Source: a virus. From it: DNA of 64,000 bases. The notes under the pieces were generated by a model, which ran no database searches, was not told where the DNA came from, and saw only the letters and a program-made list of their open reading frames with translations. The stretch is from positions 1 to 64,000 of IMG/VR virus record IMGVR_UViG_3300010160_000047; one strand, written 5' to 3'. Position 1 is the first letter of the stretch. Every line of letters begins with the position of its first letter. This document shows positions 5,934 to 50,625 of the stretch, in pieces. Made by a program: the position numbers and the translations under genes.

Positions 5934-5936
5934 ATT

Positions 5937-17336: not shown

Positions 17337-17373
17337 AATCCATTGTTGCGAAAGTAATTAATGGATTTTTTTC
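17337..17373 (+). terminator. Terminator-like hairpin before the portal gene
   Basis: AATCCATT (17337-17344) pairs perfectly with AATGGATT (17360-17367) around a 15-base loop, followed by a T run. The in-frame ATG at 17361 lies inside the right arm, which is why the portal start is placed at 17376. Confidence 0.55.
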
Positions 17374-17375
17374 TT

Positions 17376-27646: not shown

Positions 27647-27658
27647 TAAAAACATAAA

Positions 27659-28437: not shown

Positions 28438-28441
28438 ATTT

Positions 28442-28705: not shown

Positions 28706-28717
28706 AACCTATGTAAA

Positions 28718-29488: not shown

Positions 29489-29491
29489 CAA

Positions 29492-32400
29492 GTGATAGAA
29501 GTTAGAGATTTTCGTGGTAAAATAAATCAAGATGATAATGCCTACAAAGTTCAAAAAGGGGATTATTTAGATGCATTAAACATAACTAGAGATGCTCAAG
29601 GTAATGGGCAAGACCAAGTAGTTTCAACAGTAGTAGGAAATCAAAGTATTCCTACATTAAGTGCAACCGATGGAAGTGATACTATAGGCACTACTACTAC
29701 CACTACAATTTTTTTTTCAGGGTCGGTATTGCCTTTAACTAATATTTTAATTAATCTTTTTGATGGCACTACTTATACAACAGCATCTTTTTATACTACA
29801 TATGGACATAGTAGTATTCCAACAATAACAGCTGCTTTATTAGCAAATGGTAATGTATTAGTTGGTACTTATACTGCTACCGATACAACATTTTCTATAA
29901 CTTTTGATAATACAATATATCTAAGTATTAGTTATACTATTACTAATGGTATGCTAGGGACAAATAAAGTTATTGGCAATTATGCCGATAAAGTAAGAAA
30001 TAGACAATATTTTTTTACTTGGAATAGTAGCGGATATAATACTATAAATTATTATGATGCTAATACTAATTCCATAATAAATTTAATAACAGATTCTACT
30101 TTAATAGATACCGGAGGTTTAACTATTTTAAATTTTAATCCATCTTTTAGAATTAATCATATAGATATTGTTTATAGAGATGAAGATGGTGATCTTTTAT
30201 TTTGGACAGATGGATTTAATCCTCCTTCTAAAATAAATGTAAAGACAGCAGAAACAGGAGGATATGGTGTTGTATTAAGAAGTTATATTGATGTAGCCAA
30301 AGAACCGCCAACAGATCCACCATATTGTGTATATCAAGATAATGCTAGTGTTACTATAAACAATTTAAACAATAGATTATTTAAATTTAAGTATAGATAT
30401 GTTTATGATGATTTAGAAAAAAGTGTAACTAGCGCACAAAGCGAAGTTGCTATTCCTAAAGAATATGTTAATCAATCTGTAATATCTAATCCAACTAAAA
30501 ATTCAAGCATATTAATTGCAGTTAAAACAGGGTTGCCTAATGTAATTAAAATTGAAATTTTAGGATCAGAATCTTTAGGAGAATCATGGTCAGATTTTTT
30601 TCTAATAAAAGTCATAGATAATTCATTTGGATTCCCTTCAGCTCAATTTAATTTTTTAAATGAACAGGCGTATTCTCCAATTCCATTAAATGAAAGTATT
30701 CAGCCATTTGATAATGTACCTCAAAAAGCATATACGCAATCGTTACCTAATGGTAATGTTTTAGATTATGGAGCAATAACAGAAAACTATAATTTAATAA
30801 CACCAGATTATTTAACTACTATTGATACGAATGTAAAATTATCAAGCTATTTAAATCAAACGGCAGAAATACTTTTATATAAAATTGAAAATCCAAATTC
30901 AATTCAAATAGTAATAGCAGGAAATCCTAATATTGGGGATTTATTTAATTTAAATTATATTTATGATACAATTCCTACAAGTACATCAATAATTGCAACA
31001 GGAATCACAACGGCCTCTTTAGTAACAGATATAGAAAATCAATTTATTGCTTTAGGTTATACTATTCAAATAAGTGGACTTAATTCTTTAATTATAAGCG
31101 ATTCTCCACATATATTAGATACTTATTTGCCTACAGGAGTATTTCCGGTAGCATTATTTGATAACAAAAATTCTAGTCTTGTATATGATTGGGCATCTAG
31201 ATATTCTTATGGAGTAGTTTATTTTGATGATAAAGGAAGAACAAATAGTGTTATAACATCTATACCTAGTTCATTTGAAACTCAACAATATGATGAATTA
31301 GCACCTCCATCTAATCCATTAGAGATTTATATTCCACAGCAAATACTTGAAATAAATAGTGCGCCCCCTAGTTGGGCATCATATTTTGAATTAGTACGAA
31401 CAAAAAATCTTACTAAAGGTAATTTTTTATATTGGGTTAGTGAAAGGACTCTTAAAGATTCATCTCCAAATTCTGCTGGATATCAATATGCGTATATTTC
31501 TATAGGCAACTTAACTCAATATATTGTAGATAATCCTGAAATAAAAACATTAGGATATGAATTTGTAGCAGGCGATAGAATTAGATTTATAAAATTATAT
31601 GATTCATCTTTTGTAACTGCTCAAATATATACAAACCATGATTTTGAAATAGTAAATAGTGTTACTAATCCTGTTATCAATGGAATTACCATTATTGGAC
31701 AAGTAATAAAAATACTTTTACCTACAACAGTAGTTGGTATTTTTGATTTTGGCACAATTCAGTTTAATAATTATTTAATTGAATTATATACACCTGCTCC
31801 TAATTTTTCAGATAACCTTAATCTTTATTATGAATTTGGAGAAAAATATGCAATAAATGGATTTAATACACCCCAACCATATCATAATGGAATGATACAA
31901 AATCAAACTATTTCTCAACCAGCTATTTTTAAATTATATAAAGGAGATAGTTATTTTAGATTTAGAACAATGCCAACAGGAGGTGAAATTAAATTTTCTA
32001 TGGGTACTGGTCATATAGACTTTCAAAGTAATCTTGGGGGTACGGTAATATCAAATACCAATAACAATGCTTTATATACAGGTCAAAATTTTACAGGGCG
32101 TAGTGGAGGAATCTCATTAGCAGGTGAAATGCCTATTACTTATAATTCCGTAACTCCTCCTAAGATTAGAATAAAAGGATTTCTAACATATGCATCAGAT
32201 GCAAATTCTTTTCAAGGAAATATTATTTTAAATGCCTATTTAATAGGTGGATTTTCCTTTAATTTTCTTGGAAATTTACCTACTACACCGCCATTACCTC
32301 CATTAACCGCAAATCAAGACAAAACGGTTTTATTTGATTATGTAATTCAGTTGCCATCAGGATATGATGGATTACGATGGGATGTAGAACAACAAGCAGG

Positions 32401-33643
32401 GACAATCAAAAAATTTGAAATTACAATAACAGATCCATATGCCATAAACCAAGGTATAATAGATCCCAATTTTTCTGATACTTATGATAGTGCTGCATCT
32501 CCTAATGGGAGAGCTTGGAAGTTTGATCCAAATGCAGGACAAGCATTTAATCCTACATTAATAAGATTTGGAGGTGAATTATATGCAAATACAACAGTAA
32601 ACAATATTAATAGATTTTATGAGCAAGATAATGATCAATATGATAGAAGCAGAGGCTCAATTAAAAAGATGTTTATTGAAGGAAGAAATCAATTTATATT
32701 CCAAGAGTTTGATGTAGGTGTAGTAACTGTATTAACACAGATTGTAAAAGACACATCAGGTAATCCTCTTTCTGCTCAAAGTGATACTTTGCTTAATAAA
32801 ATAGTGTATCCATATGCAGGACAATATGGTATTGGTAATGTTCCAGAATCATTTGCTTATGGTAAAAGAGCAAAGTATTTTGTAGACAATAATAAAGGTG
32901 TAGTATGTAGATTAAGTGCAGATGGAATAACTCCACTTTCTATTCTTTATAAAATGAATGCTTTTTTTGTAGCTAAATTAGCTGGATTTAAAGATAATTT
33001 AAACACTACAATACCTGCATCTGGAACTCCTACAGTTTATGGAGCATTTGATGCTTATACAAATAAATACATCATATCACTTTCTGAAATAGATAGAGAT
33101 GATTTGTTTCAAGACCCATATACTTTAGCATTTTTAGAAACAAGAGATGCCTCAGAAGGGTTTGAATCTTTTCTTTCTTTTCATCCAGAAAATATGGGAG
33201 CATTAAATAATTTGTTTATTACATTTAATGCAGGTGGTACTTGGACACATAATAACAATACCTATTGTAATTTTTATACGATTCAATATAATTCTTATAT
33301 AGATGGAGTATTTAATGATAATGCAATAGATAAAAAATCATTTTTGGCTATTATGCAGACCTCAAATGCCGTATGGTATTGTCCATCTATTAAATCTCAA
33401 GTAAATACTTATGGATCAACTTCACAAGAAACAGAAATAAATGCAGCAAGATTTGTTTTGCAAGAAGGACAATATAACTCAGCAATATTAAGAGATAAAA
33501 ATAGTCCAGGTGGTTTAATTAATGGACAAACTATGAAAGGCAATTACCTAATAGTTAGATTCCAAAAAGACAATGCTAGTAATTTTTATTATATTAATAC
33601 AGTATCTTTGAAATACAATAATTCACCCTTAAACACAAGATAA
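29492..33643 (+). CDS. Very large tail-hub/stabilisation ('muzzle'-like) protein
   Basis: A 1383-residue protein starting with GTG, three bases after the adaptor gene. The N-terminus MIEVRDFRGKINQDDNAY is the conserved opening of large stabilisation proteins in Bacteroidota podoviruses. The body is nearly all beta with Asn/Thr/Ser-rich loops. Its size and place after the connector genes correspond to the tail-tip or 'muzzle' protein of crAss-like phages and to T7 gp12-type nozzles. It is expected to form the lower part of the short tail. The equivalence is inferred from order and length. Confidence 0.62.
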   Translation: MIEVRDFRGKINQDDNAYKVQKGDYLDALNITRDAQGNGQDQVVSTVVGNQSIPTLSATDGSDTIGTTTTTTIFFSGSVLPLTNILINLFDGTTYTTASFYTTYGHSSIPTITAALLANGNVLVGTYTATDTTFSITFDNTIYLSISYTITNGMLGTNKVIGNYADKVRNRQYFFTWNSSGYNTINYYDANTNSIINLITDSTLIDTGGLTILNFNPSFRINHIDIVYRDEDGDLLFWTDGFNPPSKINVKTAETGGYGVVLRSYIDVAKEPPTDPPYCVYQDNASVTINNLNNRLFKFKYRYVYDDLEKSVTSAQSEVAIPKEYVNQSVISNPTKNSSILIAVKTGLPNVIKIEILGSESLGESWSDFFLIKVIDNSFGFPSAQFNFLNEQAYSPIPLNESIQPFDNVPQKAYTQSLPNGNVLDYGAITENYNLITPDYLTTIDTNVKLSSYLNQTAEILLYKIENPNSIQIVIAGNPNIGDLFNLNYIYDTIPTSTSIIATGITTASLVTDIENQFIALGYTIQISGLNSLIISDSPHILDTYLPTGVFPVALFDNKNSSLVYDWASRYSYGVVYFDDKGRTNSVITSIPSSFETQQYDELAPPSNPLEIYIPQQILEINSAPPSWASYFELVRTKNLTKGNFLYWVSERTLKDSSPNSAGYQYAYISIGNLTQYIVDNPEIKTLGYEFVAGDRIRFIKLYDSSFVTAQIYTNHDFEIVNSVTNPVINGITIIGQVIKILLPTTVVGIFDFGTIQFNNYLIELYTPAPNFSDNLNLYYEFGEKYAINGFNTPQPYHNGMIQNQTISQPAIFKLYKGDSYFRFRTMPTGGEIKFSMGTGHIDFQSNLGGTVISNTNNNALYTGQNFTGRSGGISLAGEMPITYNSVTPPKIRIKGFLTYASDANSFQGNIILNAYLIGGFSFNFLGNLPTTPPLPPLTANQDKTVLFDYVIQLPSGYDGLRWDVEQQAGTIKKFEITITDPYAINQGIIDPNFSDTYDSAASPNGRAWKFDPNAGQAFNPTLIRFGGELYANTTVNNINRFYEQDNDQYDRSRGSIKKMFIEGRNQFIFQEFDVGVVTVLTQIVKDTSGNPLSAQSDTLLNKIVYPYAGQYGIGNVPESFAYGKRAKYFVDNNKGVVCRLSADGITPLSILYKMNAFFVAKLAGFKDNLNTTIPASGTPTVYGAFDAYTNKYIISLSEIDRDDLFQDPYTLAFLETRDASEGFESFLSFHPENMGALNNLFITFNAGGTWTHNNNTYCNFYTIQYNSYIDGVFNDNAIDKKSFLAIMQTSNAVWYCPSIKSQVNTYGSTSQETEINAARFVLQEGQYNSAILRDKNSPGGLINGQTMKGNYLIVRFQKDNASNFYYINTVSLKYNNSPLNTR

Positions 33644-33644
33644 A

Positions 33645-34349: not shown

Positions 34350-34351
34350 AT

Positions 34352-35397: not shown

Positions 35398-35408
35398 AAT
35401 AATAAACA

Positions 35409-36887
35409 ATGATAAACAATCCGGCAAGTCTTTATGGAGGAGGTGCTTTTAAAGTAGATTCCACAGCAGCAGTAAATTATTATTTAAAAAGACAAGCACA
35501 AGATCAAGCTAAAGAAGCAACATTAGATAAGTACTTTACTCATCTAATGGATAAGGCATCTCCTACAGGAATGAGAGTTGATAAAGAAGGAGAAGCATTT
35601 CAGCAATCATTAAATAATGCTAAGAATTATTACATACAAAACAAAAAAGCAATTTTAGGTGGGGATGTTACAGCACAACAAAAATATATAGAATTAACAA
35701 ACCAACCATTCCAAATAGTTGCAGCAAGTAAAGAGGCTTTAAATACCGCTAAAACTGCTTTGCAAATACGAAAAACAATTCAAGGACAAGGAGAAGATAG
35801 ATGGACAGATCAAACTACTGGTATTGATGCAGAATCAGGATTACCAAAATTAGATGATAATGGTAATTATATGGGTTTAGTTGCCCATGACCAAAAAATG
35901 TATGATATAAATCCAGACGGCTCAGTAACACAGAATCCAAAATTTAAATTGTTTGATATTAATTCAATACAAACAAATCCTAAATTATTAAACGTAAAAG
36001 AATTACAAGATTATACAGATAATTCTTTAACTTCTTTTCAACCTGAAGATATAAGTTCGGGTATAATGAAAGACCCTAATAGAAAGGGATATGAAATACC
36101 AATAATTGAAAAGGGGTTTAAAAAAGAAACTTTAGCAAAAATAGGGGAAACAGTTAAAACAATATCAGAAGACCCATCAATGAAGGCTACAATTAATAAA
36201 TTGTATCCATATAAAACGTGGCCTTTGCAACATCAAGTTGAATTTGATGCACTTAATAAATTACATAATGATTTATATGGTACTGATATAAAAAATGGAA
36301 TTGATTTATATGCTACTATGCAAGTTCAACCAAGAATGGTTACTAGAAAAGACTTAGGCACATCTAAATTAAGTGATGATGCAACAAGAGCTAGAGATCT
36401 TGAAGATAAAAAGAGGTATTTTAATTATACAAAAAATACTGATCCAACAGTAATGGCTAATGCGGATCAAGTAGAACTTGGATTTGAAAGAATTACGCCG
36501 GGTACATATGGTAATGTAAAAATTGAAGGCGGTGTAGTTAAAAATTTAGATGGTACTCCATATACTAGTCCGGGTGGACAACCTTCAGTAGATATTCCGT
36601 TAGGTGCTTTGTCAACAGAAATCATTGATGAATTCCCAACAGGAACAAAAGTAAAAAGTATTGCTGGTATTAAAGCGATAGTAGAAAATGGTAAAATAAA
36701 ATTTGCTGCTATAAAAGGTAGAGTATCTGGAAAAGATTATGGTACTATAAATAGAACTGTACTTTACAACAAAGAATTCTCAAAAAATGCAGTTCCTGTT
36801 CCTATAAAAACCGTAACTTCAACTCCGAAAACACCAGCTGCAAAAACAGGTGGAGTAGTAATCCCAGGAATGAATAAAACACCATAA
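35409..36887 (+). CDS. Internal virion protein candidate, 492 residues
   Basis: A helical protein starting MINNPASLYGGGAFKVDSTAAVN, with a Lys/Gln-rich middle and a beta-rich C-terminal third (ITPGTYGNVKIEGGVVKNLDGTPY). The tail ends in Lys/Thr/Pro-rich linker sequence. The gene lies between the small hydrophobic internal protein and the 4199-residue polyvalent gene and shares their late operon. It is probably an ejected core or cargo protein. No catalytic motif is seen. Confidence 0.58.
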   Translation: MINNPASLYGGGAFKVDSTAAVNYYLKRQAQDQAKEATLDKYFTHLMDKASPTGMRVDKEGEAFQQSLNNAKNYYIQNKKAILGGDVTAQQKYIELTNQPFQIVAASKEALNTAKTALQIRKTIQGQGEDRWTDQTTGIDAESGLPKLDDNGNYMGLVAHDQKMYDINPDGSVTQNPKFKLFDINSIQTNPKLLNVKELQDYTDNSLTSFQPEDISSGIMKDPNRKGYEIPIIEKGFKKETLAKIGETVKTISEDPSMKATINKLYPYKTWPLQHQVEFDALNKLHNDLYGTDIKNGIDLYATMQVQPRMVTRKDLGTSKLSDDATRARDLEDKKRYFNYTKNTDPTVMANADQVELGFERITPGTYGNVKIEGGVVKNLDGTPYTSPGGQPSVDIPLGALSTEIIDEFPTGTKVKSIAGIKAIVENGKIKFAAIKGRVSGKDYGTINRTVLYNKEFSKNAVPVPIKTVTSTPKTPAAKTGGVVIPGMNKTP

Positions 36888-36899
36888 AAAGTATAAAAA

Positions 36900-39800
36900 A
36901 TGGATATGAATACTATTGAAGATACTAATGCAGAAGTAGAAAATTCAATAAATGAACCTATATATAAATCCAAAGATGGGCAGATAATTACACACTCACA
37001 ATTACTTAGTTCTGGATATAAAGTAAACGATATAAACGCAGGAGTTACAGATAAAACCTTATCTCTAATAGGTGATACTAAAGATGAAGATCAAGAATTC
37101 CAATCTAAAGATGGACAAAAAGTTAATACTAAAACTTTATTAAGTTCTGGATATTCTCAAAAAGATATAGACGGTGGAATATTAGATGGTATCTTAACTC
37201 CCATTGAAAAAAAAAATCAAGTCCAACCATCCGAACCAGATATTCCTATCGTGGATATATCACAAGTGGATTCAAGTGGCTCACAGGATGGCGCATCAAA
37301 TGTTATAACACCCACACCAACAGAAACTCAAGCACCAATTGATGCTAGTGGTAGAATAATCTTTGACCAAAAAGAACCATCACAACCAAAAGTAGCAGCA
37401 CCAAATGAACCTGCACCTGCAAATTCAATTGATTTAATTTTACAAGCCAATGATAATTTAAATAAGAAAGTAGGCAAAATAAAAGATCAAGCAGGAAGAG
37501 AGCGTGAAATAGACCAACCAGATTTAAAAGCACAAGATGAAGGCAAAAAAACATTAGACTATCTTAAAACATTTAAGATAGATACAGATGATTTGTACAA
37601 TAAAATAAAAGACTTACCTCCAGAAATATACAATGCTACTTTAGCAAAACAAGATGGCACAATAGATTATCCTTATAGCAAAGAAAAGCTATTTGAGATG
37701 TATCAAAACGAACCTGCAAAATTTACATTTACAGTTAACCACCTAAAAAATATGGCTGATATAATTAAGGGTGCAAAAGGAGCAACTATAGATGGACAGC
37801 CTGTAGATAAAAGTTATTTTGGCAAATTGTATAATAATTTAAATCAATCAACAACACATAAGGGGTGGTTAAATAATAAAGAACAACAAATAGAATTAAT
37901 CAATAAGTATCTTCCTTCATTAGATTCTAGAAGAGTTGCATTAGATAGATTAGAAACTAATGCATCTATGTATTACACTCCTGCTAATCCAAATGTAATA
38001 GCTGATTACAATGCATCACCTTTAAAAGATAAATTAGACCCTGCTCAATTCGCTGCATTGCAAATGCAAAAAATGTTTAATCCTAAAGCATATCAACAAG
38101 CAATTGGATTTTTAGATGTAAAGCCTCAAACAGAAACAGCAGTAACACTAGGCGTTAGTTTTACTCCAGATGGTTTCGTATTAAATCAACCAAAAGATAC
38201 AGAAACTCAAGAATCAATAAATTTAAAAGTAGGTAAAGAAACTACTCTTAAAAATTTAGCTGATGCAGGTAGATATAATACCATAATGAATTTGCAATAT
38301 AAAAACGAAAAAATTGCATCTCAATTAAAACAATTTCCTACTGATCAATATTCGGAATTAGTAAATAAATACAATACTAGTGCTGATGAACTCAAAAAAA
38401 TATCAGCACAAAATGAAGAATTAAAAAATAATATAGAAGAAAACTTAGGAAAATATAAAACGCCGTATATACAGCAGTATAATGCTAATATACAAAAGGC
38501 TAATTCTATTTCTCAAGAAATGAATAGCATTTCCGAGCAGTTTAAACAAATGCCTCAAGATAATCGTGGACAATTAATTGGACAATTTAATGACAATTTA
38601 GCCAAGATAAATGCTGTCAAAGATGATTATAAAAAAGATGCAGATAAATATCCTAATTATTTTAATTTAAAATACGAACAACAAGTTAAAGATTTTATGC
38701 AACAAACCGGATTTAATGCTGTTCAGTATGGCATAATGAAATTTGGTATGGGATTAATTAAAACTGGAAGGTCAATAGAAAACGTAAGTATTAGTTTATT
38801 TGGAAATAATGAAGATAAAATAATTCATGACTTAGCTAGTTATGGAGAATCTCAAGTAGAAGCACAAGATGAATATTTACCAAGCAAATATCAATCTGGT
38901 AACAATTTAGTTTCTATAAAAGTTAGTGATGATTTAAAATCAAAATTAGATGCAGTAATTAGAGGCAGAGATTTATCAGATTTAAATATAGGTGATAAAG
39001 ATTTTTTGAAAAACATTTTATCACAAAATCAAGATCAAGTACATACAATTACAGATACAGATAAAAATGGTAAAGGAGCTAACTTTTGGAGCTACTCTAC
39101 ATTGTATGCTAATACCGGTATGTTGGGAGATATTATGTCATTTGTTGTACAAGCTGGAGTATTAACTGCATTAGGTGTTCCAGAATTAGCAGCATCTGCA
39201 ATACCTCTATGGACTACTACACAAGATGATTTTAGAAAAGAAGGTATAGCTAAAGGATTAACTGGATCAGAATTGGATGGATATGCTAATTTGAATGCTA
39301 CCATTATGTTTTTGGCTGGTATGGTTACTCCTAAATTAGTAGTATTAAAAAAATTAGCAGGAATAGGATCGGCAGAAAGTAAAATGTTAGCAGGTATAAC
39401 TGAAGATACATGGAATACAGTAGTAAATAAAAATAGACCAATAATAGATAGAATTAAAAATTCTGTACTTGCTACTACTAAAGAAGCGGCTAAAATGACT
39501 GGAACTTTTGGTATAGCTGCTCCTGCATTACAACAAATAGTTGGCAAAGAAATGTATGGCGATAGAGTAAGTTATGGTGATATCAAAAATAATGTAATGG
39601 AATCGGCAGAACATTTATTAAAAAGTTCTGCGGCATTATTAGCCGTTGGTGCAATTACAAATTTCAAATCAACATCTCCAGAACAAAAAGCGGCATTGTG
39701 GCAATTAGGTGCTAATCCAAAAATTAGATTAGCTGAAATAGAAGATGCATTAAAGAATGGTGAAATAAATTCAACACAAGCAGATGCAAGAAAAAAAGTA

Positions 39801-42800
39801 ATCCAAGATGCATCAAATATCATTCAAACAATGCCCACTAAAAATATGCAGGGCAAACCTTTGACAGATAAACAAAGAGTAGATTACTTCTACAATTTAC
39901 TTATTCAAGATAAAGCAAAAACAGAAAAGAAAAGTTTACCAATACAACAAGTAAAGAAAATTGAATATGCTGAAATGGTTGCTGACCATTTGAATAATTT
40001 AATAGTTGATCCACAAGATGAAACTAAATTAAATGGTAGAATAAAAGAACTTAATAAAATATTAAAAGACAATGTAGATGATATTGATGCTAAATCAGAA
40101 CTTGATGCCATTAATATTCATCTTGAAAATTTAGCGCAAGAAAAAGAACCAACAAAAACTGCTGAAGAAATACTAACAGGTAAACCTGTACCCATAAAAA
40201 CTTTGGAAGAAATAATTTCTGAAGAAACAATACCAGATTTAACGGTGGGTGATTTATTAGATAAAACAGGTAAATATAAAGGTCAAGATGGATTATTTTA
40301 TTTAGATGGACAAACAGTTATTTTTAAAGTTGAAGGACAAAATAAGGAATATGAACTTGGTAACATTAATGAAATAAAAGATTCTTCTATAAAAGATTTT
40401 GGCATTGAACATAAAGAATCCGTAGTTACTATAGGAGATAATGGAGAACTAATAGTTAGAGGAGAAGAATATAAAAATAGATATTCAGACCCATTAATGG
40501 CTATAGATAGAGATGCAAATGGGAATGTGATTGGAGTTACTTTGGAAACGAAAAATGGCAATAAAAGAAGATTTAGAGGTAATACCGCAGAAGATATAGC
40601 ATATCAAATTCATTTACAAGAAATAACTAAAAATAATGAAACAAGACAATTTGAAGAATTCATCAATGAACCAGAACAACAACAGCAAATTGACATTGGA
40701 GCAGTTCCAGAATCTACCACGGAAGGTACAGTTACAACTAATGAGCCAATTCAACGAGAAAAAATTGAACCAATCCAACAATCAGAACAAGACCTTTCTG
40801 AAGTAAAAATTCAAGAACCATCTGAATTAGATAAAGCCAAAGAAGCAAGATTAGCTGCAAAAGAAAAGCTTAATCAAATTCGTGGTAGATTGGGTGTAAT
40901 AAGAGATACTAAAGCAGAAGCACAAGCATTATACGATTATCACGTTGCTACTATTAAACTAGCAAAAGAACACATAAAAGAAGGCATTAAAACTCTTGAA
41001 GAGTTTGCAAAATCAATTGGAGAAAAAGTTACTGAACAATTAAAAACAGCATGGAATGACGCACAAAAAAACATCCAAACAATCAAATCTGCCTCAGAAA
41101 GTCTTAAATATAATACAGGAGAAAAAGAAGGAATATCCTATCTATCAGAATCCTCCGATGTTGACTACCCAAGTGGAGGCGGAGTACAAGGTGAAGGGGG
41201 CAAAGTTTCTCAATCAATAGTAGGTGTATGGGGTAAAGATAAAAACATACAATTTACTGGTACTACTAGAGTAAAGAACGCTGCTGATGTTGCACATATT
41301 ATGCAGTTATTGGAGAATAAAACAGTAGAACACGCATTTGCTGTACACATAGATAAAAATGGCAAATCACATATTCAATTTCTTTCAATAGGTGGTTTAT
41401 CTGGAACTGTAGTTGATCCTAAATCAGTATTAGCCGGAGCGAAAAAATTCAAATCTGTTCGTACATTTTTGATACATAATCATCCATCTGGTAATATGCA
41501 ACCAAGTAATGCAGATTTAAATATTACAGCTAAAATTAGAGCAGGATTAGAACCATTAGGTATAAAGATTGAACACGTTATTATGGATACATTCAGCAAA
41601 GAATATATTCATATAGATGAGTTAAATGAACCTAGAGTTTATAAAAGAGATGAAAACTTACAAGACAATGTAAAATTATCAACTTATTCAATGAATGATA
41701 TGATGATTTTGTCTAAGCCTATAGTAAAGGTAAGACAAGCATCTGATGCAGTAAACTTCTTACAACAGTTAAGATTTACTGCTATGCCTAAAAATGCTAT
41801 GTTGCTTTTAGATTATGGCAATAGCATTATAGGTAACTATGTATTTAAAGGTGAAATAGATTACGAACAAATAACATCATTTGTAGCAGAATCTGGTATA
41901 GGAAGCAATGTTATTTTTTATGGTAATAATTTTGATAAAGCTTTAATCTCAGCAATGAGAGATAAGTTAGTTGGTTTAGATATAAAAGTACTTGACCATA
42001 TAGTTACCTCAAGTGATACTACTTCAGTTAATCAGTATTATGAAAGTATGATGGAGGCAGGGCATCTATCAGAAACACAACTTAAATACGGAACTAATAT
42101 AGTTAATGAAGTAGGAGAAAGAGATCAATATAAAAAAAATGCTACTGAAGCATTAAAAGATGTAATCTACATAAAAGATTATAAAGATGGAGCTGCATTG
42201 GCACATGGAGTAAAAAATGGAGATCCCAAAGCAATAAAACAAATGGCCGAAGAAATGGCATCAAGAATTCCAAAAGATGCTACTATAATTCCAATGGCAG
42301 GACGTAATGGTATTGCCGGTAATATGCTTTTAGTTGCAAATGAAATATCAAAAATAAATGGCAATAAAGTTGCAGACATAATAACTGGAGAAAAAAGAGA
42401 ATCGCTTTATGATTTAAAAAAACAAGGCAGAGATATTTCACAAATGAATCTTGGCTTGAAATTAAAAGGCAAAGTACCAAAAGGGGAAATTTATGTAATA
42501 GATAATGTAGTAGCGACAGGTAAAACTGCTACTGAAATAAAAAAATTATTACCAGATTCTAAAATATTAGTTCACTCATTAGATACAAAAGTACTTAATG
42601 AAACTTTAGGTGTATCAGAAACACCTACAACATCTGTAGAAGTTACTAGTGAAAATATTAATAAATTAGATGCAAAAAAGAAAAATGAATTAGCAGAAAA
42701 AGCAGGTATTTTTTATCATGGTACAGTTGCTAATTTTAAAGAATTTATTGCAAATAAAATAAAGTCCGGAGCAATACAAATAAAAGGTGCTTTATTTTTT

Positions 42801-45800
42801 ACTAATAAAAAAGCAAGAGCAGATGCATTTGGATTGCAATCATATAAAAATGTTTCAAGTGAATTATTTCAATTATCAAGAGGAATAATAAATTTAAATG
42901 ATTACGAATCATATAAAAATTCAACTAGAGAATTGCCAAAAGATTTAATGAACAATGTAAACAATTATTTCAAATCAATTGGGATAGAAGCAACAGTAAA
43001 AACAATAGGCGATTTAGCAAAAGCATATGAAAAATATAGAAATGAAAAAGAGGCAAAATATAATGTAAAAGCTATAAAAATAAAAGAAAGTGCAAAAATA
43101 AAAGTAATAGAAGGCAAAAAAAATTGGAAAGATACATTATCTAAATTAAATATAGAAACAGGCCAGTTAAAAAACGAGTATAAAAATTACGATGTCTTAA
43201 TATTTAAAAATATTGAGGACTATCCATTAATGCAAAATCCATCAGAAGAAATAACTAATGCAGATAATATTGTAGTATTAAATCCTTCTAAAATAGAAAC
43301 CATAGAAAATGAATCAGATGCCATTTCTAATTTATATAATGAAACTTTAAGAATTCCAAAAGAAAAAAGATCAGAACAACAAAACGAACTTATATCCTCA
43401 GTTAATGAAACATTAGGAGTATCAGAACTTCCCCAACAAAAAGGTATAGCACCAATAACTGAACCTAAAACAGCAGCAGAGAAAAAAACAGTAGCAGATC
43501 AGTTAAGACAATTAAAATCAGGCAAAGGGAAAGCGTATGATGCAGTTTTAGGCGTTCCTGTAGCCATATGGGATGGAGCAGTAGAATTGATAGCAAAGGC
43601 AATAGAAGGAAGCACAGAAGTAGCTGAAGCAATCAGAAGAGGCATTAATTACATAGAGAAGAATCATAGAGGCAAATGGGATAAACAAAACTTCAATCAA
43701 AAAGTAATAGAATCATTAGGATTTAGAGGTATTCGTGTAAATGGTGAAGATGTGATAGTTAAATCAATGGTAGATAAACAAAGTGCAGAAGTTATCAATG
43801 GTTTTTATTCACCTCTTGAACAAGGCATATTAAATGCTAAAGCAGAAAGTTTAACTGGAAAAGAATGGGCTGATAAATTACAAGCAAGTACAGATGCAGA
43901 TGAATTGAAATTTACAGGAATGTCAGATTTTCTTTCTGATAATGCAAACAAATCATTAACCAAGCAAGAAGTGCTTGATTATATGAAGAACAATAGAATA
44001 GAAATTAATGAAATTCAATTAGGAGAAGGTGAAAGATCAGAATGGATAAAAAAAGAAGATGGATATTATAATTTAGGTGATAAATCTCCAGCAGATAAAA
44101 AATATAGAATAGTAGATGAAGGAACAGAATATAATGAATTTAGCATATATAGAGGTAAGTCTCATATTAAAACAGTTGAAGGATTAGAAGAAGCAAAAGA
44201 AGAAGCAGAATATATAGCATTGCAATCGCAAGGATTAGAATTTATCAGTAAAAATACTAAATATTCTGACTTTCAACTTTCTGGAGAATCATCTAACTAC
44301 AAAGAAATATTAATTACTTTACCAATTACCAAACTTCCAAAAGGGTATAAAGTAATACCAAAAAGCGAATATATCCATGGTTCTACTGAAGGTCGTAGTA
44401 ATTTTCTTATAGTTGATGATGAAGGATATAGTATAATGGGAGGTAACACTAAAGAAGAAGCCATTTCTGATTTTTTAAGTTTAAGAAAAGAAAGTGGTGG
44501 ATTTACATCTCCTCACTTTGATGAACCAAATATATTAGCTCACATAAGATTAAATACAAGAGTAGATGCGGATGGTAATAAAGTGGTTCATATTGAAGAA
44601 TTTCAGTCTGATTGGGGTAAAGAAGGCAGAGAATATGGATTTTTAACTGAAAAAGATAGAACAGAAGGATGGAAAATAGAAGAAGCAACAGATAGATCTG
44701 GATATTACATATTTAATCCAAAAGGCAAGAAAGTTGCATTTGAATTTAATAAAGAAGATGCTGAACTAGAATTAAATGAATTAGCTAATATAAGCAATCA
44801 AACCGGAGAACCAATGGGATCTACTTCTCCAGCCCCTTTTGTAACAGAAACTGGTAATTGGGTAAAACTATCGTGGAAAGTAGCACTTAAAGAAGCAGTA
44901 AAAGAAGGAGCAGATAAAATTACTTGGACTACAGGAGAACAACAAAATGATAGATATCGTTTAGATAAAGATGTAGAATCAATATTACATAAACCAAATT
45001 CAGATGGAACTTATCAGGTAGAAGTATTTGGACATAATGGAGGCACTCTTTATTTAAATGAAAAAGCTACATTAAAAGATATAGAATCAACATTAGGAAA
45101 AGAGATAGCTGAAAAAATTGAAAAAAACGAAGGCGAAACTGAAAAAAGAGGTAAAATTTTAGAAGGCGAAGATTTAACTATAAGTGGTAAAGGAATGAAA
45201 GGGTTTTATGGTTCTCCAAGTGAAGGTAAATTAGGTATTGTAGGGGATGTAATTAAATCTATGATTGGGCAAGAACCTAAAACAACTATATTAAATAAAG
45301 GAGTAACAGAAAATTTAAAAGCATATGAATTTGATGGAACACAAGATATTTCTGATGTACCAGGGTCTAATTTTATTAATAAAGGCGAGTGGGTAGTTGA
45401 ATCTCCAACTGGACTTAAAATGATAGTTGAAGCATCTTCAAGAGAAACAGCAATTCAAGAATTTAAAGATGCTGCAAGTGATGCGGATGTAAACATACCT
45501 AGTGGAAACGAATCAGTTCAACATTCAATAGAAATAACCCCAGAGATAAAAGAAGGAGTTAAAGAAGGTATGGGTTTATTCAAAGCTCCATTTGAAAGAA
45601 CTGAATTACAAAAGGCTCAAGAAGCAAGAAGAGCAGCTAAAGCTAAACTAGATGAAATTAAAGGAAGATTGGGTATTGCTAAAGATATAGAAGCTCAGGC
45701 ACAAGCATTATTTGATTATCATAAAGCATTAGTTGCTGAAGCAAAAGAATATGTAAAATTAGGAATTAAAAAAGTAGAAGAATTTGCAAAAGAAATAGGA

Positions 45801-48800
45801 GAGAAAGTAGATGATGCAGTAAAGGCTGCTTGGAATGAAGCTATGGGAATAAACCCTCCGGCTAAAGTACCTGAAGATTTAAAGCATATAGCTAGGATGC
45901 TAGAAACTGATGAAGAATGGACTGGTATTAGTCAAGCAAGATTGAAAGAGATAGAAGAAGTTCGTGAATTATTTGAAAGAGAAAAAGGAACTAATTGGCC
46001 AACAATACAAAGAGAAGCATTAGAACAATTAGCAAGAAAATATCCAGATGAAACTATTTATGATGCAGCAAGATTAGAAGTAGAAATATTAGCTAATAAA
46101 TATGATAATAAAGAAGATTACAACCCAACAACTAAAGACTTAGCAGTCATTCAAGAATTTAAAAGACAAACTGAACAAAAAATAGATAAACTTAAGAATA
46201 ATTTAAATTCTGAAAAAGATGTAATAAGAAATTTAGCAGTCCTTAAAATTGAAGCATATCAAGATGATTTAGTAAAAGTTGGCAAAGCTTCATTTAAAAG
46301 AGAAGCAGGTACTGCATTTGGATTTAGAGCTTCTGAAAGTAGAATGGATGAGAATTATGGTTTGCAAATAAGAAAAGCGCAATTAATTAGAGCAAATGAT
46401 GGAGAAGAATTATCAAAAGAAGATAATGATTTTTTAAATGACCAATGGGCAAAGGAAAAAGAATTGATGAAGAAAGAACAACAGATTCGTGAGCAAGGAT
46501 TAAAAGATGCTTTTGATGTACAATTGGATAAAGTGAAGAAAGATTATGAGGAGAAAATGAAATTAATGAAAGCTAAAACAACACCAGAAGTTAGGAAACA
46601 GGCATTATCAAAAACAGGTAAAGATGTTGCTAATGTAATTAGAAGATTAAAATTAAGAGGTACAAAATTAGACTTTACTATAGGCGGTTGGAACTTAGCA
46701 GTTGAAGGTGTTGCAAAAATAGTTGAAGCTGGATTTACAGTTGCAGAAGCTATAGAGCAATTAATTCAAAATAAAACTATCGGATTCAAAACAGCAGAAG
46801 ATAGAAAAATATTTGAAGACAACTTAGCATCATTCATAAACAATTTAGATAGAAGAGAAACATCTTTGGAGGACATTAAAAAGATGGCTCAAGCAAATGG
46901 TGATACTACAGTTACGATTGATATGGTTAAGAAAGGATTGATTAAAGATTTTATCAACTCACACGTTGGCGAATTTGAAAATAAAGATATCTTAGAAGAA
47001 GCATACAATGAGTTAAAAAAGATATTGCCAGACTTAGATAGAAATGCTCTTAGAAGAGCAATGCTTAGATTAGATGAGTTCAAGACTCCGGATAAGAAAA
47101 CAATAGAGAATATGTTGGCTCAAGAAACTCGTGCATTACAAAGATTATTAGAAAAAGAAGAAAACAAAAAAGTACAAGGAAATGAGCAACAAAAAAGATT
47201 ATTAGAAAAAGAGAAAAAAAGTATTCAAAGAAAAATTCGTGAATTTCAAAGAAAATTAAAAGAAGGAGAATTTGAAAAAGAAGAACCTGTAACATTAAAA
47301 AAACAAGATGCTGAATTAATTCAATTAAATAAAGAAAAGAAAGAAGCAGAAGGTGCATTCAGAAAAAAACAACAAGAATTAGAAGAAAAAAATAAACATT
47401 GGCTACAAAGATTTGGCGATACAGTAAGAAATACTTGGGTTGCATTTTTGATTGGTTCTCCAGTTACGTTAGCAAAAGTTGGATATATGTCTTTAGTTAG
47501 ACCTTCATCTGAAATAATAAGAAAAGCTGTATTTGGTAAATTATTTAATTTGATTTATCCAAATATTTCTAAAGCAGCAGAAAGAGGTGGAGAAAGTAGT
47601 GGATTAAGACCAATAGCAGAAGGATTAAAAGCATATTTTAGACAAAATACAGCAGCATCAATTGAAAAGAAATCTCAATTAGCAATTCAAAAATACGATC
47701 AATCTGCAAAAGCTTATTATGATGCTTTAAATACAGGTGCTGATACAAAAACATTAAAAAAATTAGAAAAACAAATGAATAGAGATTTAGAAAATTCTCT
47801 TTCAAATATAATTTATCAATTTATAGGAGGCAGTTCACTTAAAGATTCTTGGCAATCATTTATAAATAGATCAAATGAAATAGAAAAACAATTTGGTAAA
47901 GTAGATATTGAATCAATAAGAGATGGAAATGCTTTAGATAAAATGAATTATATTATGGGATTCATTGGTCGGTCGCATTCAGCCGCAAAAACATTTTCTG
48001 GTAGATTTAGTTTTGCAGTATCATTTATGAGCCGTTTAGAAGGTGCAATAAAAGATGGTTCTATATCAGATCCAAATAAAATTATAGAAATAGCACATGA
48101 ATCATATCTTGATTGGGAAAGAGGTAAATATCAACAAGATAATTGGCTTACTGAAAAATGGAATGAAATAACTGCCGCAATTAGAAAAAATACTTCTAAA
48201 AATCCAAAATGGAAACCATTTGATAAAGGGTTAGAATTTTTAACTAAATCAGAAGTAGCCATTACAAGAGTTCCGGTAAATGTATTGTGGGAACAAGTAG
48301 GTGAATATGCAAGAGGAGCATTTGTTGCGCCTATTAAGGCATATAGAGAAATTAAATCTGCTAAAGCACAAGCTAAAATGGAAGGATATGATAAAGCAGT
48401 AAATAGTGCTGAATTCAAAAAAAGAGTTAATGAGATTGTTTCTACTATGGATCAAGACCAAGCAGCTAGAATATTTAGATTATTTACTAAAGGAGGATTG
48501 GGTCTTGGATTGTATGGCTTGACTTTAGTTACTGGATTAATGCATTTTGGAGTATTCCCTCACAAAGGACAAAAGCAAAAGAAAGAAGAATATGAATTAG
48601 AACCAGAAGAATTGAATCCGGGTCAAGTCATGTTTGGTGATGATAAATTAGGAGAAACTGCATCTAAATTAGTAGAACATACTCCAGCATTATGGCCATC
48701 ATTTATGGGATTGGGATTAGCTAAAATATATGCAGATGATGTAAAAGCAGGTAAAATGACTTCTCAAGCAGCATGGGATGCAGTTTATACTCATTTGCAG

Positions 48801-49499
48801 ATTGTAGAAGGAGCAATACCTCAAACAAAAGTTTTCAGTCCATTAAATGTTATTAAAGGTGTAGGTAAAACTTGGGCAGGGAAAGCAAGTAGTTATGGTA
48901 TGTTTGATAGTTTGATAGATGCAAAAGGTAACTTTATAGATAAAGAAAAAGAAGGATTGAAATTAACTAGTCCAGAAGTTTTGAGATTAGAAAAATATGG
49001 AGTTGCTCCTTTAGAATTAGGTACAAGAAAACAATACAAAATAGAAATAGATAAGACTCATCCAAAAGAAGGATTAACTCCAAAAGGAAAAGAATATGCA
49101 TTAATGAATCCTCACGAATTTACTAAATTTACCGAATACAGAAAGTCATACATTAATGAAACTCTTAGAGAATTGTATAGAGCGGAAGATGGTGCTTATA
49201 TTGGAGTAGATAAAGATTTTAATCCAGATTATACTTATTTAAAACCAAATAGAACCATATATAATTTGATGCGAAATTTGGCAAACAAACCAGTTGATGG
49301 AGCAACAATTGAATTAAACAAACAAGTTCTTGCTGAAATAATGCCAATAATAATTAGTCAATCTTCAATAGTTGCAAAAAACAAATTAATAGAAGAAGGA
49401 TTATTACCAGAATCAAATTATGAAGATGAAGAAGGGAATGAAAACATAATGACAATAAAAGAAATTATTCAAGATTTATATGAAAATAACACGCCGTAA
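36900..49499 (+). CDS. Giant polyvalent virion/ejection protein, 4199 residues
   Basis: One unbroken 12.6-kb frame. Seen domains in order: two N-terminal SKDGQ repeats (about 22-95); hydrophobic stretches near 740-817; a helical module (1310-1390); a JAB/RadC-like metalloprotease-fold domain with HNHPSG at 1526-1531 and Asp1539; a phosphoribosyltransferase site VIDNVVATGKTA at 1866-1877; an ADP-ribosyltransferase-like FYHGT at 1938-1942 with a following FFT; a W-AVE-type helix module (about 2210-2260); the EEFQSDW domain (2566-2572) with TGEQQ at 2678-2682; second copies of the helix modules (2900-2985 and 3235-3290); a long charged coil; and C-terminal hydrophobic segments (about 3510-3530 and 3865-3886). 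This is the hallmark of 'large polyvalent proteins', thought to enter the host with phage DNA. Which activities work is unknown. Confidence 0.85.
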   Translation: MDMNTIEDTNAEVENSINEPIYKSKDGQIITHSQLLSSGYKVNDINAGVTDKTLSLIGDTKDEDQEFQSKDGQKVNTKTLLSSGYSQKDIDGGILDGILTPIEKKNQVQPSEPDIPIVDISQVDSSGSQDGASNVITPTPTETQAPIDASGRIIFDQKEPSQPKVAAPNEPAPANSIDLILQANDNLNKKVGKIKDQAGREREIDQPDLKAQDEGKKTLDYLKTFKIDTDDLYNKIKDLPPEIYNATLAKQDGTIDYPYSKEKLFEMYQNEPAKFTFTVNHLKNMADIIKGAKGATIDGQPVDKSYFGKLYNNLNQSTTHKGWLNNKEQQIELINKYLPSLDSRRVALDRLETNASMYYTPANPNVIADYNASPLKDKLDPAQFAALQMQKMFNPKAYQQAIGFLDVKPQTETAVTLGVSFTPDGFVLNQPKDTETQESINLKVGKETTLKNLADAGRYNTIMNLQYKNEKIASQLKQFPTDQYSELVNKYNTSADELKKISAQNEELKNNIEENLGKYKTPYIQQYNANIQKANSISQEMNSISEQFKQMPQDNRGQLIGQFNDNLAKINAVKDDYKKDADKYPNYFNLKYEQQVKDFMQQTGFNAVQYGIMKFGMGLIKTGRSIENVSISLFGNNEDKIIHDLASYGESQVEAQDEYLPSKYQSGNNLVSIKVSDDLKSKLDAVIRGRDLSDLNIGDKDFLKNILSQNQDQVHTITDTDKNGKGANFWSYSTLYANTGMLGDIMSFVVQAGVLTALGVPELAASAIPLWTTTQDDFRKEGIAKGLTGSELDGYANLNATIMFLAGMVTPKLVVLKKLAGIGSAESKMLAGITEDTWNTVVNKNRPIIDRIKNSVLATTKEAAKMTGTFGIAAPALQQIVGKEMYGDRVSYGDIKNNVMESAEHLLKSSAALLAVGAITNFKSTSPEQKAALWQLGANPKIRLAEIEDALKNGEINSTQADARKKVIQDASNIIQTMPTKNMQGKPLTDKQRVDYFYNLLIQDKAKTEKKSLPIQQVKKIEYAEMVADHLNNLIVDPQDETKLNGRIKELNKILKDNVDDIDAKSELDAINIHLENLAQEKEPTKTAEEILTGKPVPIKTLEEIISEETIPDLTVGDLLDKTGKYKGQDGLFYLDGQTVIFKVEGQNKEYELGNINEIKDSSIKDFGIEHKESVVTIGDNGELIVRGEEYKNRYSDPLMAIDRDANGNVIGVTLETKNGNKRRFRGNTAEDIAYQIHLQEITKNNETRQFEEFINEPEQQQQIDIGAVPESTTEGTVTTNEPIQREKIEPIQQSEQDLSEVKIQEPSELDKAKEARLAAKEKLNQIRGRLGVIRDTKAEAQALYDYHVATIKLAKEHIKEGIKTLEEFAKSIGEKVTEQLKTAWNDAQKNIQTIKSASESLKYNTGEKEGISYLSESSDVDYPSGGGVQGEGGKVSQSIVGVWGKDKNIQFTGTTRVKNAADVAHIMQLLENKTVEHAFAVHIDKNGKSHIQFLSIGGLSGTVVDPKSVLAGAKKFKSVRTFLIHNHPSGNMQPSNADLNITAKIRAGLEPLGIKIEHVIMDTFSKEYIHIDELNEPRVYKRDENLQDNVKLSTYSMNDMMILSKPIVKVRQASDAVNFLQQLRFTAMPKNAMLLLDYGNSIIGNYVFKGEIDYEQITSFVAESGIGSNVIFYGNNFDKALISAMRDKLVGLDIKVLDHIVTSSDTTSVNQYYESMMEAGHLSETQLKYGTNIVNEVGERDQYKKNATEALKDVIYIKDYKDGAALAHGVKNGDPKAIKQMAEEMASRIPKDATIIPMAGRNGIAGNMLLVANEISKINGNKVADIITGEKRESLYDLKKQGRDISQMNLGLKLKGKVPKGEIYVIDNVVATGKTATEIKKLLPDSKILVHSLDTKVLNETLGVSETPTTSVEVTSENINKLDAKKKNELAEKAGIFYHGTVANFKEFIANKIKSGAIQIKGALFFTNKKARADAFGLQSYKNVSSELFQLSRGIINLNDYESYKNSTRELPKDLMNNVNNYFKSIGIEATVKTIGDLAKAYEKYRNEKEAKYNVKAIKIKESAKIKVIEGKKNWKDTLSKLNIETGQLKNEYKNYDVLIFKNIEDYPLMQNPSEEITNADNIVVLNPSKIETIENESDAISNLYNETLRIPKEKRSEQQNELISSVNETLGVSELPQQKGIAPITEPKTAAEKKTVADQLRQLKSGKGKAYDAVLGVPVAIWDGAVELIAKAIEGSTEVAEAIRRGINYIEKNHRGKWDKQNFNQKVIESLGFRGIRVNGEDVIVKSMVDKQSAEVINGFYSPLEQGILNAKAESLTGKEWADKLQASTDADELKFTGMSDFLSDNANKSLTKQEVLDYMKNNRIEINEIQLGEGERSEWIKKEDGYYNLGDKSPADKKYRIVDEGTEYNEFSIYRGKSHIKTVEGLEEAKEEAEYIALQSQGLEFISKNTKYSDFQLSGESSNYKEILITLPITKLPKGYKVIPKSEYIHGSTEGRSNFLIVDDEGYSIMGGNTKEEAISDFLSLRKESGGFTSPHFDEPNILAHIRLNTRVDADGNKVVHIEEFQSDWGKEGREYGFLTEKDRTEGWKIEEATDRSGYYIFNPKGKKVAFEFNKEDAELELNELANISNQTGEPMGSTSPAPFVTETGNWVKLSWKVALKEAVKEGADKITWTTGEQQNDRYRLDKDVESILHKPNSDGTYQVEVFGHNGGTLYLNEKATLKDIESTLGKEIAEKIEKNEGETEKRGKILEGEDLTISGKGMKGFYGSPSEGKLGIVGDVIKSMIGQEPKTTILNKGVTENLKAYEFDGTQDISDVPGSNFINKGEWVVESPTGLKMIVEASSRETAIQEFKDAASDADVNIPSGNESVQHSIEITPEIKEGVKEGMGLFKAPFERTELQKAQEARRAAKAKLDEIKGRLGIAKDIEAQAQALFDYHKALVAEAKEYVKLGIKKVEEFAKEIGEKVDDAVKAAWNEAMGINPPAKVPEDLKHIARMLETDEEWTGISQARLKEIEEVRELFEREKGTNWPTIQREALEQLARKYPDETIYDAARLEVEILANKYDNKEDYNPTTKDLAVIQEFKRQTEQKIDKLKNNLNSEKDVIRNLAVLKIEAYQDDLVKVGKASFKREAGTAFGFRASESRMDENYGLQIRKAQLIRANDGEELSKEDNDFLNDQWAKEKELMKKEQQIREQGLKDAFDVQLDKVKKDYEEKMKLMKAKTTPEVRKQALSKTGKDVANVIRRLKLRGTKLDFTIGGWNLAVEGVAKIVEAGFTVAEAIEQLIQNKTIGFKTAEDRKIFEDNLASFINNLDRRETSLEDIKKMAQANGDTTVTIDMVKKGLIKDFINSHVGEFENKDILEEAYNELKKILPDLDRNALRRAMLRLDEFKTPDKKTIENMLAQETRALQRLLEKEENKKVQGNEQQKRLLEKEKKSIQRKIREFQRKLKEGEFEKEEPVTLKKQDAELIQLNKEKKEAEGAFRKKQQELEEKNKHWLQRFGDTVRNTWVAFLIGSPVTLAKVGYMSLVRPSSEIIRKAVFGKLFNLIYPNISKAAERGGESSGLRPIAEGLKAYFRQNTAASIEKKSQLAIQKYDQSAKAYYDALNTGADTKTLKKLEKQMNRDLENSLSNIIYQFIGGSSLKDSWQSFINRSNEIEKQFGKVDIESIRDGNALDKMNYIMGFIGRSHSAAKTFSGRFSFAVSFMSRLEGAIKDGSISDPNKIIEIAHESYLDWERGKYQQDNWLTEKWNEITAAIRKNTSKNPKWKPFDKGLEFLTKSEVAITRVPVNVLWEQVGEYARGAFVAPIKAYREIKSAKAQAKMEGYDKAVNSAEFKKRVNEIVSTMDQDQAARIFRLFTKGGLGLGLYGLTLVTGLMHFGVFPHKGQKQKKEEYELEPEELNPGQVMFGDDKLGETASKLVEHTPALWPSFMGLGLAKIYADDVKAGKMTSQAAWDAVYTHLQIVEGAIPQTKVFSPLNVIKGVGKTWAGKASSYGMFDSLIDAKGNFIDKEKEGLKLTSPEVLRLEKYGVAPLELGTRKQYKIEIDKTHPKEGLTPKGKEYALMNPHEFTKFTEYRKSYINETLRELYRAEDGAYIGVDKDFNPDYTYLKPNRTIYNLMRNLANKPVDGATIELNKQVLAEIMPIIISQSSIVAKNKLIEEGLLPESNYEDEEGNENIMTIKEIIQDLYENNTP

Positions 49500-49571: not shown

Positions 49572-50090
49572 ATGCCTTACTCACAAAATTTTACAGTAGC
49601 GCAAACGCCAATTAATCCTGCCTACATAATAGTTACAGATACTAGTACTGGATCTGATCCATTAATAATAGGTAGAACTATAACTATTAAAGATTCTTTT
49701 GGTAATTATTTAGTACCAGAAGGAATAACTACAAATTATATAGATTGGCCATTGGTAGATATTTCAATCTCATTAAATATTTTAACGCAAGATGTTGCAG
49801 CCAATGTATTAGTAGAATGGTTGTATGCTGGGCCTGTAATTCAATATTCACTTAATAGAAACTATTGTTTTTCTCAATACAATAAACAATTCCTTTATTA
49901 TTTAATTCAATTACAAGCACATAATTATGCTATAATTCAAGACAATAATTATTGGGGAAATGTAGGTATTTTTTGGACTAATATTACAGGCGCAATAAAC
50001 GCAGTTGAAATAGGGGATGATATAGCAGCTTCACAAGCTTGTCTTTCAAGAGCAACATTTATGGCACAAAATCAATCAATTTATTTTTAA
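49572..50090 (+). CDS. Tail or fibre-adaptor protein, 172 residues
   Basis: A beta-rich N-terminal half (MPYSQNFTVAQTPINPAYIIVTDTSTGSD) and a helical C-terminal half (KQFLYYLIQLQAHNYAI) with no recognised family. It sits between the polyvalent gene and the tail fibres, so it is probably a tail adaptor to which fibres attach. The N-terminal beta domain is similar in style to small phage tail proteins. Confidence 0.55.
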   Translation: MPYSQNFTVAQTPINPAYIIVTDTSTGSDPLIIGRTITIKDSFGNYLVPEGITTNYIDWPLVDISISLNILTQDVAANVLVEWLYAGPVIQYSLNRNYCFSQYNKQFLYYLIQLQAHNYAIIQDNNYWGNVGIFWTNITGAINAVEIGDDIAASQACLSRATFMAQNQSIYF

Positions 50091-50091
50091 G

Positions 50092-50625
50092 ATGTCACAA
50101 TTAACGATACCGGAAATAATTGAGTTAGGGGATATAAGTGTCCCCTTTTCTGCTAATTATCAAGCCAAGGGAAGTTTGTATGGGACTAGGTTAGCATTTT
50201 CTGCACCACAAACCATAGCGTTAGTTACCGATGCTTTAAGATGGCATTGGGATGATTTTCCCGGAGATAGTACGTTAAGAGGTGTAGCTAATTATTTATA
50301 TTGGTTATGCGGTAAGTTTGCATTAGAAGGGCAATATGTTATTTCTGGCACAGGTGGCGGTACAGTTATACCAATTAATCCAATTGTAGCTCCTACCCCA
50401 ATAGAGTTTGAAGTTACAGGATCTTCATTTATGATAAATGGTCAAAGTGTACAAGCGATACCATCTTTTGTTGGATACAATTTATTATTTATTAGAAATA
50501 ACATTCCTCAATCCATAGTTAATATGGGAGCATCTTATTTCTCATGGGATAAAAATACAGGAACATTTACTTGTTATCCAGCAGCAGTTTCGGGAGAGTT
50601 ATTTCAATTATATCCATACATTTAA
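50092..50625 (+). CDS. Tail-associated hypothetical protein, 177 residues
   Basis: A protein with a Trp-rich centre (ALRWHWDDFPGDSTLRGVANYLYWLCGKFALEG) followed by a strand-rich C-terminus (ITVTGSSFMINGQSVQ-like). It starts two bases after the previous gene and ends four bases before the first fibre gene, so it belongs to the tail-fibre operon. Bacteroidota phages often have such a helical/Trp protein next to fibres. Function unknown. Confidence 0.58.
   Translation: MSQLTIPEIIELGDISVPFSANYQAKGSLYGTRLAFSAPQTIALVTDALRWHWDDFPGDSTLRGVANYLYWLCGKFALEGQYVISGTGGGTVIPINPIVAPTPIEFEVTGSSFMINGQSVQAIPSFVGYNLLFIRNNIPQSIVNMGASYFSWDKNTGTFTCYPAAVSGELFQLYPYI

Follow-up and report, generated by a model that had tools for sequence, protein, structure and literature searches.

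A modular 4199-residue protein with features of large polyvalent proteins closes the virion operon of a Bacteroidota podovirus

The giant gene and its place in the genome

We analyzed positions 1 to 64,000 of the IMG/VR virus record IMGVR_UViG_3300010160_000047, a 65.8-kb virus contig with a GC content of 31%; this stretch of 64,000 nt is referred to below as the window. It contains a gene that encodes a giant protein of 4199 residues (36900..49499; features with two-dot coordinates are on the + strand), with a calculated mass of 471 kDa (470.8) and an isoelectric point of 5.7. The initial annotation had described it as a single frame packed with effector-type domains, and the frame is indeed uninterrupted, with 4199 codons open from the ATG. 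It is not a chance frame: the operon around it is structural and co-directional, and in related phages homologous giants occupy the same position. Window positions 26900-43089, which include the first ~2063 codons of the open reading frame, recur without a single base difference in another IMG/VR contig.

The location beside virion genes was also borne out. The giant gene is the last of a co-directional virion operon and follows the genes for the portal protein (17361..19805; phrog_6547, 1.4e-53; 61% identity in the L009 phage), a capsid-region structural protein and a virion structural protein of 1383 residues (29492..33643; phrog_14478, 9e-55). These three proteins and the terminase large subunit (15176..17248; phrog_6681, 1.6e-68; Pachyviridae/Elemovirus/Panino type) all match PHROG families. 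Directly upstream of the giant gene is a gene of 492 residues (35409..36887), and a gene of ~450-640 residues occupies the same place in relatives. At least eight related phages keep the arrangement with a giant gene at the operon end. Among annotated terminases, the nearest are those of Manatee Spring MW202828, the Flavobacterium elemoviruses, Cellulophaga phages of the phi19:3 type (Pachyviridae), the Maribacter phage Panino and the Tenacibaculum phage Gundel, with an identity to the Pachyviridae members of only ~27%. The phage is of the Cellulophaga/Flavobacterium/Maribacter kind, in agreement with the proposal of a podovirus of Bacteroidota; electron microscopy has shown Panino to be a podovirus (PMC11590407).

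Outside of the enzyme-like domains, several segments of the giant could be delimited. An N-terminal segment (residues 9-139; 36924..37316) contains two copies of a '..LLSSGY....I' motif and is common only to the giant of the L096 phage (48% identity); a general N-terminal tandem 'GY' motif of giants was rejected, since no enrichment above background was found. It is followed by an N-terminal common module (residues ~535-1117; 38502..40250), which is also present in the L009, L096 and L168 giants. This module holds two hydrophobic segments, at residues 742-760 and 798-816, with Kyte-Doolittle values of at least 1.5. Membrane segments had been predicted near both ends of the protein; these two stand, whereas the best C-terminal segment (3867-3885) reaches only 1.47. 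Two direct repeats of 83 residues (copy 1, residues 1306-1388, 40815..41063; copy 2, residues 2899-2981, 45594..45842) are 60% identical at the amino acid and 69% at the DNA level. The last large segment (residues 3004-4194; 45909..49481), here called the C-terminal chassis, is also found in the otherwise unrelated giants L164, L168, L169 and L113.

RadC, phosphoribosyltransferase and ADP-ribosyltransferase domains

The middle of the chain carries four enzyme-like domains, and their characteristic motifs are located where the initial annotation had placed them: HNHPSG at 1526, FYHGT at 1938, EEFQSDW at 2566 and the loop resembling a phosphoribosyl pyrophosphate (PRPP) site, since YVIDNVVATGKT was found at 1865. 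By sequence similarity, the assignment of residues 1459-1563 (41274..41588) to the RadC/JAB domains is certain. The region matches PF04002 (9.9e-20) and a homologue of solved structure (PDB 2QLC; 2.9e-13), it includes HNHPSG (1526-1531), and the RadC-type metal motif HxHPSG...S..D is kept (HNHPSGNMQPSNAD). The same GG.SGTVVD signature as in the RadC domain of the giant is present in the stand-alone RadC proteins that lack the upstream glutamate (see below). These proteins (L281:1363-1812, L292 and L293) possibly represent a sub-clade with altered chemistry.

Residues 1767-1893 (42198..42578) are probably a phosphoribosyltransferase (PRT) domain, as had been claimed. They have 38% identity to WP_045861804, which is encoded on a Teredinibacter megaplasmid and carries the annotation phosphoribosyltransferase. 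The region of the PRPP loop alone yields weak matches at the same place (a PRT family of PHROG, 0.057; uracil phosphoribosyltransferase, UPRTase, 0.09; and, in the homologue, Pribosyltran, 0.05). Globin, HSP20 and TGS, three further sub-threshold Pfam matches on the giant, were treated as chance, and the UPRTase match was kept because it coincides with the PRPP loop. Compared with the loop consensus DD/ED-xxx-TGxT, the giant has IDNVVATGKT; that is, the loop is there with asparagine at the second acidic position; the homologue has DG.

The sequence also supports an ART-PolyVal-like domain, of the ADP-ribosyltransferase (ART) type, at residues ~1937-2138 (42708..43313), consistent with the earlier claim. 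PF18760 matches near full length (E 1.6e-5; profile positions 8-136 of 140), with 26.1 bits, below the gathering cut-off of 31.2. In a reading of the sequence for the H-Y-D site, H1940 and a plausible aspartate in NADNIVVLNP (NADNIVVLNPSKI) are present, and ALFFT is found at the position of the tyrosine. A recent import of the cassette is not supported by base composition, as the GC content is flat except for the ART domain (25%).

The EEFQSDW domain, a widespread family with a predicted GNAT-like fold

The fourth domain (residues 2296-2900; 43785..45599) had been noticed for its EEFQSDW motif and left without identity. Its presence was verified, and it proved to belong to a large family for which a GNAT-like fold interrupted by insertions is predicted. 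When residues 2296-2900 were used for a pattern scan of IMG/VR, 75 distinct viral loci were retrieved; in bacterial genomes, a profile scan retrieved at least 80 contigs from many phyla. Among the loci compared, 125 of the 161 frames that carry the domain have at least 1000 residues. Homologues are already present in the databases as unnamed proteins. A Pfam search with 54 EEFQSDW segments gave no family below an E-value of 0.002 and no match to a Pfam LPD model, and an NCBIfam search with 14 whole giants gave no match; as judged from these searches, the domain is without an adequate Pfam or NCBIfam model. It may be one of the 40 LPD domains described by Iyer et al. (2017; PMC5512222). In the 54 sequences, nine residues are invariant (R2550, E2567, Q2569, P2646, W2676, T2677, G2679, Q2681 and Q2682 in the numbering of the window giant), and the core contains many further near-invariant polar and aromatic residues.

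AlphaFold2 models were obtained for the domain of the window giant (predicted local distance difference test, pLDDT, 84.6) and for the most compact homologue, L246, with 309 residues (pLDDT 91.5; predicted template modeling score 0.85). A Foldseek search of the PDB with the first model gave no significant match, but GNAT enzymes made up 27 of the 50 best entries in a manual count. For the L246 model, almost all of the best 50 entries are acetyltransferases, with NatD (NAA40; 4ua3; E 4.7e-4, probability 0.99) as the best match, followed by enzymes such as TacT3, AtaT and Naa50, and Foldseek assigns the EEFQSDW core to the fold of these enzymes with probabilities up to 0.99-1.00. However, the EEFQSDW domain has long insertions, the root-mean-square deviation of L246 from these GNATs is 3.5-5 over ~100 columns, the TM-scores against the listed GNATs of similar size are low (0.27-0.39 of the target), and sequence similarity is negligible. 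An hhalign comparison with 19 GNATs did align the expected beta4-alpha3-beta5 region, but with a probability of 3.7% and a P-value of 0.011 (decoys, 0.23-0.49). The canonical acetyl-CoA loop, Q/RxxGxG/A, was not found in the domain, and a conserved SDWxQxGRKxGY stands at the corresponding place. Taken together, a GNAT-like fold is the best reading of the models, not a proof.

In a viral structure library, the fold matches phage proteins only (E <1e-3), several of which are named ART-PolyVal-like or 'large polyvalent protein associated domain'. The family phrog_7348, named 'endolysin', matches 25 of the 54 EEFQSDW domains; we judge this name to be wrongly transferred, as there is no lysozyme among the PDB matches of the model. 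RadC and EEFQSDW domains occur together in six other giants (L179, L180, L187, L193, L201 and L215), all on contigs of bacterial metagenome-assembled genomes; these giants have 1597-5149 residues, with the two domains 415-692 residues apart. The Dolichospermum phage Dfl-JY45 (PP438435), a cyanobacterial jumbo phage, encodes a hypothetical protein of 2387 residues with two EEFQSDW domains in tandem (L008:9868-17031).

Exchange of modules at a fixed locus

Comparison with related phages revealed which parts of the giant are shared and which are replaced. The L164 phage has a giant of 2356 residues at the same place, of which only the last 1200 residues are common (53% identity), and the first ~1190 are unrelated to the window giant. 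The C-terminal module was also found in L168 (44%), L169 (37%) and L113 (37% over residues 3435-3982), and the L113 giant carries an EEFQSDW domain as well. The L096 phage is close by its virion genes (capsid-region protein, 69% identity); its giant of 3738 residues, again at the same place, has residues 9-139, 795-1009 and 2298-2926 in common with the window giant. In the L009 phage (capsid-region protein, 71%), the giant at this place has 2857 residues and shares only residues ~535-1097; its C-terminus differs, and none of the payload motifs is present in both giants. These comparisons show domain exchange at a fixed locus, that is, a modular giant protein. By its sequence distribution, the stretch of 1200 C-terminal residues is a chassis separate from the rest.

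The cassette of RadC, PRT, ART and EEFQSDW domains is flanked by the two copies of the 83-residue repeat, which makes this pair a candidate exchange or duplication boundary. A single copy is present in the L110 giant, directly after its EEFQSDW domain. Other domains of the sibling giants are ART-PolyVal (2 of 14) and LPD22, DarA_C, an SNF2/DEAD helicase and a GNAT (1 of 14 each). Pattern scans of IMG/VR for homologues of the whole protein or of the RadC-PRT-ART region returned only a duplicate of the same phage.

Comparison with known giant phage proteins

The combination of RadC, ART, PRT and GNAT-like domains in one chain corresponds to the architecture of large polyvalent proteins, as initially proposed. 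At least two disparate biochemical domains are combined in one polypeptide, and the gene lies amid late/virion genes. By sequence and context, the giant qualifies as a large polyvalent protein of the phage type; the zincin metallopeptidase for processing, which is common but not obligatory, is lacking. With the proteins described by Iyer et al. (2017; PMC5512222) it shares the multi-enzyme chain, the late/virion neighborhood, a probable ART-PolyVal domain and the giant size. In contrast to these, it has no zincin peptidase, its probable PRT domain lies outside the phyla listed there as primary, and its central domain has no Pfam or NCBIfam model.

Among the annotated relatives, giant genes are present in Elemovirus (gp18, 3694 residues), phi19:3 (gp129, 1871), Gundel (gp074, 2482) and Panino (1829). 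These phages have related terminases, portals and proteins of the 1383-residue type, and the giant gene is at the corresponding place. A giant gene of 1829-3859 residues closes the structural block in elemovirus, phi19:3, Panino, Manatee and Gundel, usually after the ~450-640-residue gene. In elemovirus, phi19:3 and Gundel it is annotated as 'structural protein' or 'virion structural protein'. The Panino giant (L006:18229-23718) is annotated as 'tRNA methyltransferase' despite its position as a virion giant. Unlike in the window, RadC is a separate gene in Gundel.

The virion RNA polymerase of phage N4 has about 380 kDa, and the window giant, at 471 kDa, exceeds it. The short-tailed phage crAss001 of Bacteroidota packs cargo proteins of 60-277 kDa, as found by mass spectrometry (PMC10172136). 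These proteins, gp45-gp50, resemble the window giant in being large proteins of a short-tailed Bacteroidota phage; they are packed and ejected, as proposed here for the giant. They differ in that they are RNA-polymerase-associated or channel proteins.

Proposed function and alternative explanations

Phages can decide the first minutes of an infection by means of proteins that they bring along into the host, and to our knowledge such cargo is almost undescribed for Bacteroidota podoviruses outside the crAss-like phages. The giant is probably a modular, virion-associated large polyvalent protein that is ejected together with the DNA, with packaging, injection, catalysis and targets inferred. It would be made late, together with the virion proteins, be packaged into the particle and leave it, partly unfolded, by way of the portal and tail, in line with the model put forward for the crAss001 cargo (PMC10172136). 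The N-terminal hydrophobic module and the C-terminal 1200-residue chassis would serve assembly and delivery, and the former may aid membrane passage. The middle would be an exchangeable payload of RadC/JAB, PRT-like, ART and GNAT-like (EEFQSDW) domains, and the protein would refold inside the cell after entry. There, the ART and GNAT-like domains may modify host components to the phage's favor, and the RadC and PRT domains may act on nucleic acids or nucleotides, roles that were proposed in PMC5512222. Predicted activities of this kind (ADP-ribosylation, acetylation and nucleotide/nucleic-acid processing) point to modification of the host more than to protection of the DNA. The fixed position of the giant and the swapped enzyme sets among close relatives suggest a loadable cargo that enters with the viral DNA. 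A broader proposal is advanced more tentatively, namely that the EEFQSDW domains are an unrecognized family of GNAT-fold acetyltransferases that giant injected phage proteins of many bacterial phyla commonly carry as payload, and that payload cassettes are swapped on conserved delivery ends at a fixed locus.

Several observations weigh against a catalytically active cargo protein of this kind, and some of them favor a different view, in which the giant has mainly a structural role in ejection, as a core or channel component like T7 gp16, and the enzyme-like domains are inactive spacers or folding units for bulk or DNA pulling. Position and size suit an internal ejection protein, and what relatives without these payload domains have in common with the giant are its N- and C-terminal modules. 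Moreover, catalytic residues are altered in three domains: the ART tyrosine is phenylalanine (ALFFT), the PRT domain has DN in place of the textbook DD, and glutamine aligns with the upstream catalytic glutamate of 2QLC in RadC. However, this glutamate is also missing from at least three RadC proteins that stand alone (gp002 of Gundel and a pair encoded in a Draconibacterium genome), so that its loss is not decay in the giant gene. In addition, nine invariant and many near-invariant residues in the EEFQSDW family would not be expected of inert spacers, and the payloads are swapped for other enzyme domains; a mainly structural role is unlikely. Further points against the cargo reading are that no HExxH zincin peptidase motif exists in the whole 4199 residues to cut the chain, so that any processing would need another protease, and that the viral pattern scan, a method of low sensitivity when run with one sequence, found no homologue of the PRT and ART regions. 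BLASTP detected no similarity of the window giant to the elemovirus, phi19:3, Panino and Manatee giants, nor did profile comparison of the N-terminal region (elemovirus, phi19:3, Panino) or the C-terminal module (elemovirus, Manatee). Homology to these giants was rejected on these grounds, and the 'structural' label would thus extend to the window giant by synteny only.

Two other explanations concern the place and the target of action. The giant could be an intracellular factor made during infection, for early takeover or anti-defense, and its proximity to virion genes incidental. Packaging is indeed inferred from gene context, and Gundel encodes RadC separately, outside the structural block, but the gene closes the late operon in the same direction as the others, and this arrangement is conserved in the related phages, which makes this explanation quite improbable. 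We see an even fainter chance that the payload is a defense or superinfection-exclusion cargo, nucleotide-depleting or toxin-like, directed against rival phages and not the first host. ART, PRT and GNAT folds are found in conflict systems, and polyvalent proteins have been proposed to exclude rivals (PMC5512222). Yet no immunity partner or regulatory gene was found beside the giant, and a lytic-type genome, as indicated by the lack of an integrase among the genes scanned, would gain little from such cargo.

For the preferred reading of an injected modular cargo, the delimited chassis, the delimited payload and the natural payload swaps make packaging and delivery testable apart from activity. 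The EEFQSDW domain, common in giant phage proteins of many phyla, gains a testable fold and a candidate activity.

Neighboring genes

Two small genes of 172 and 177 residues (49572..50625) directly follow in the window and are syntenic in the L096 (65/55% identity) and L009 (43/33%) phages. At 4461-6677, a DNA methyltransferase gene is directly followed by a phosphoadenosine-phosphosulfate reductase-like gene, possibly a DNA-modification pair. A second large gene (50630-54415) encodes 1261 residues without a Pfam or PHROG match; in the L096 phage, the ends of this protein are better kept than its middle, as in an exchanged fiber. A third large gene (54588-58817) encodes a protein of 1409 residues with fibronectin-type III-like repeats.
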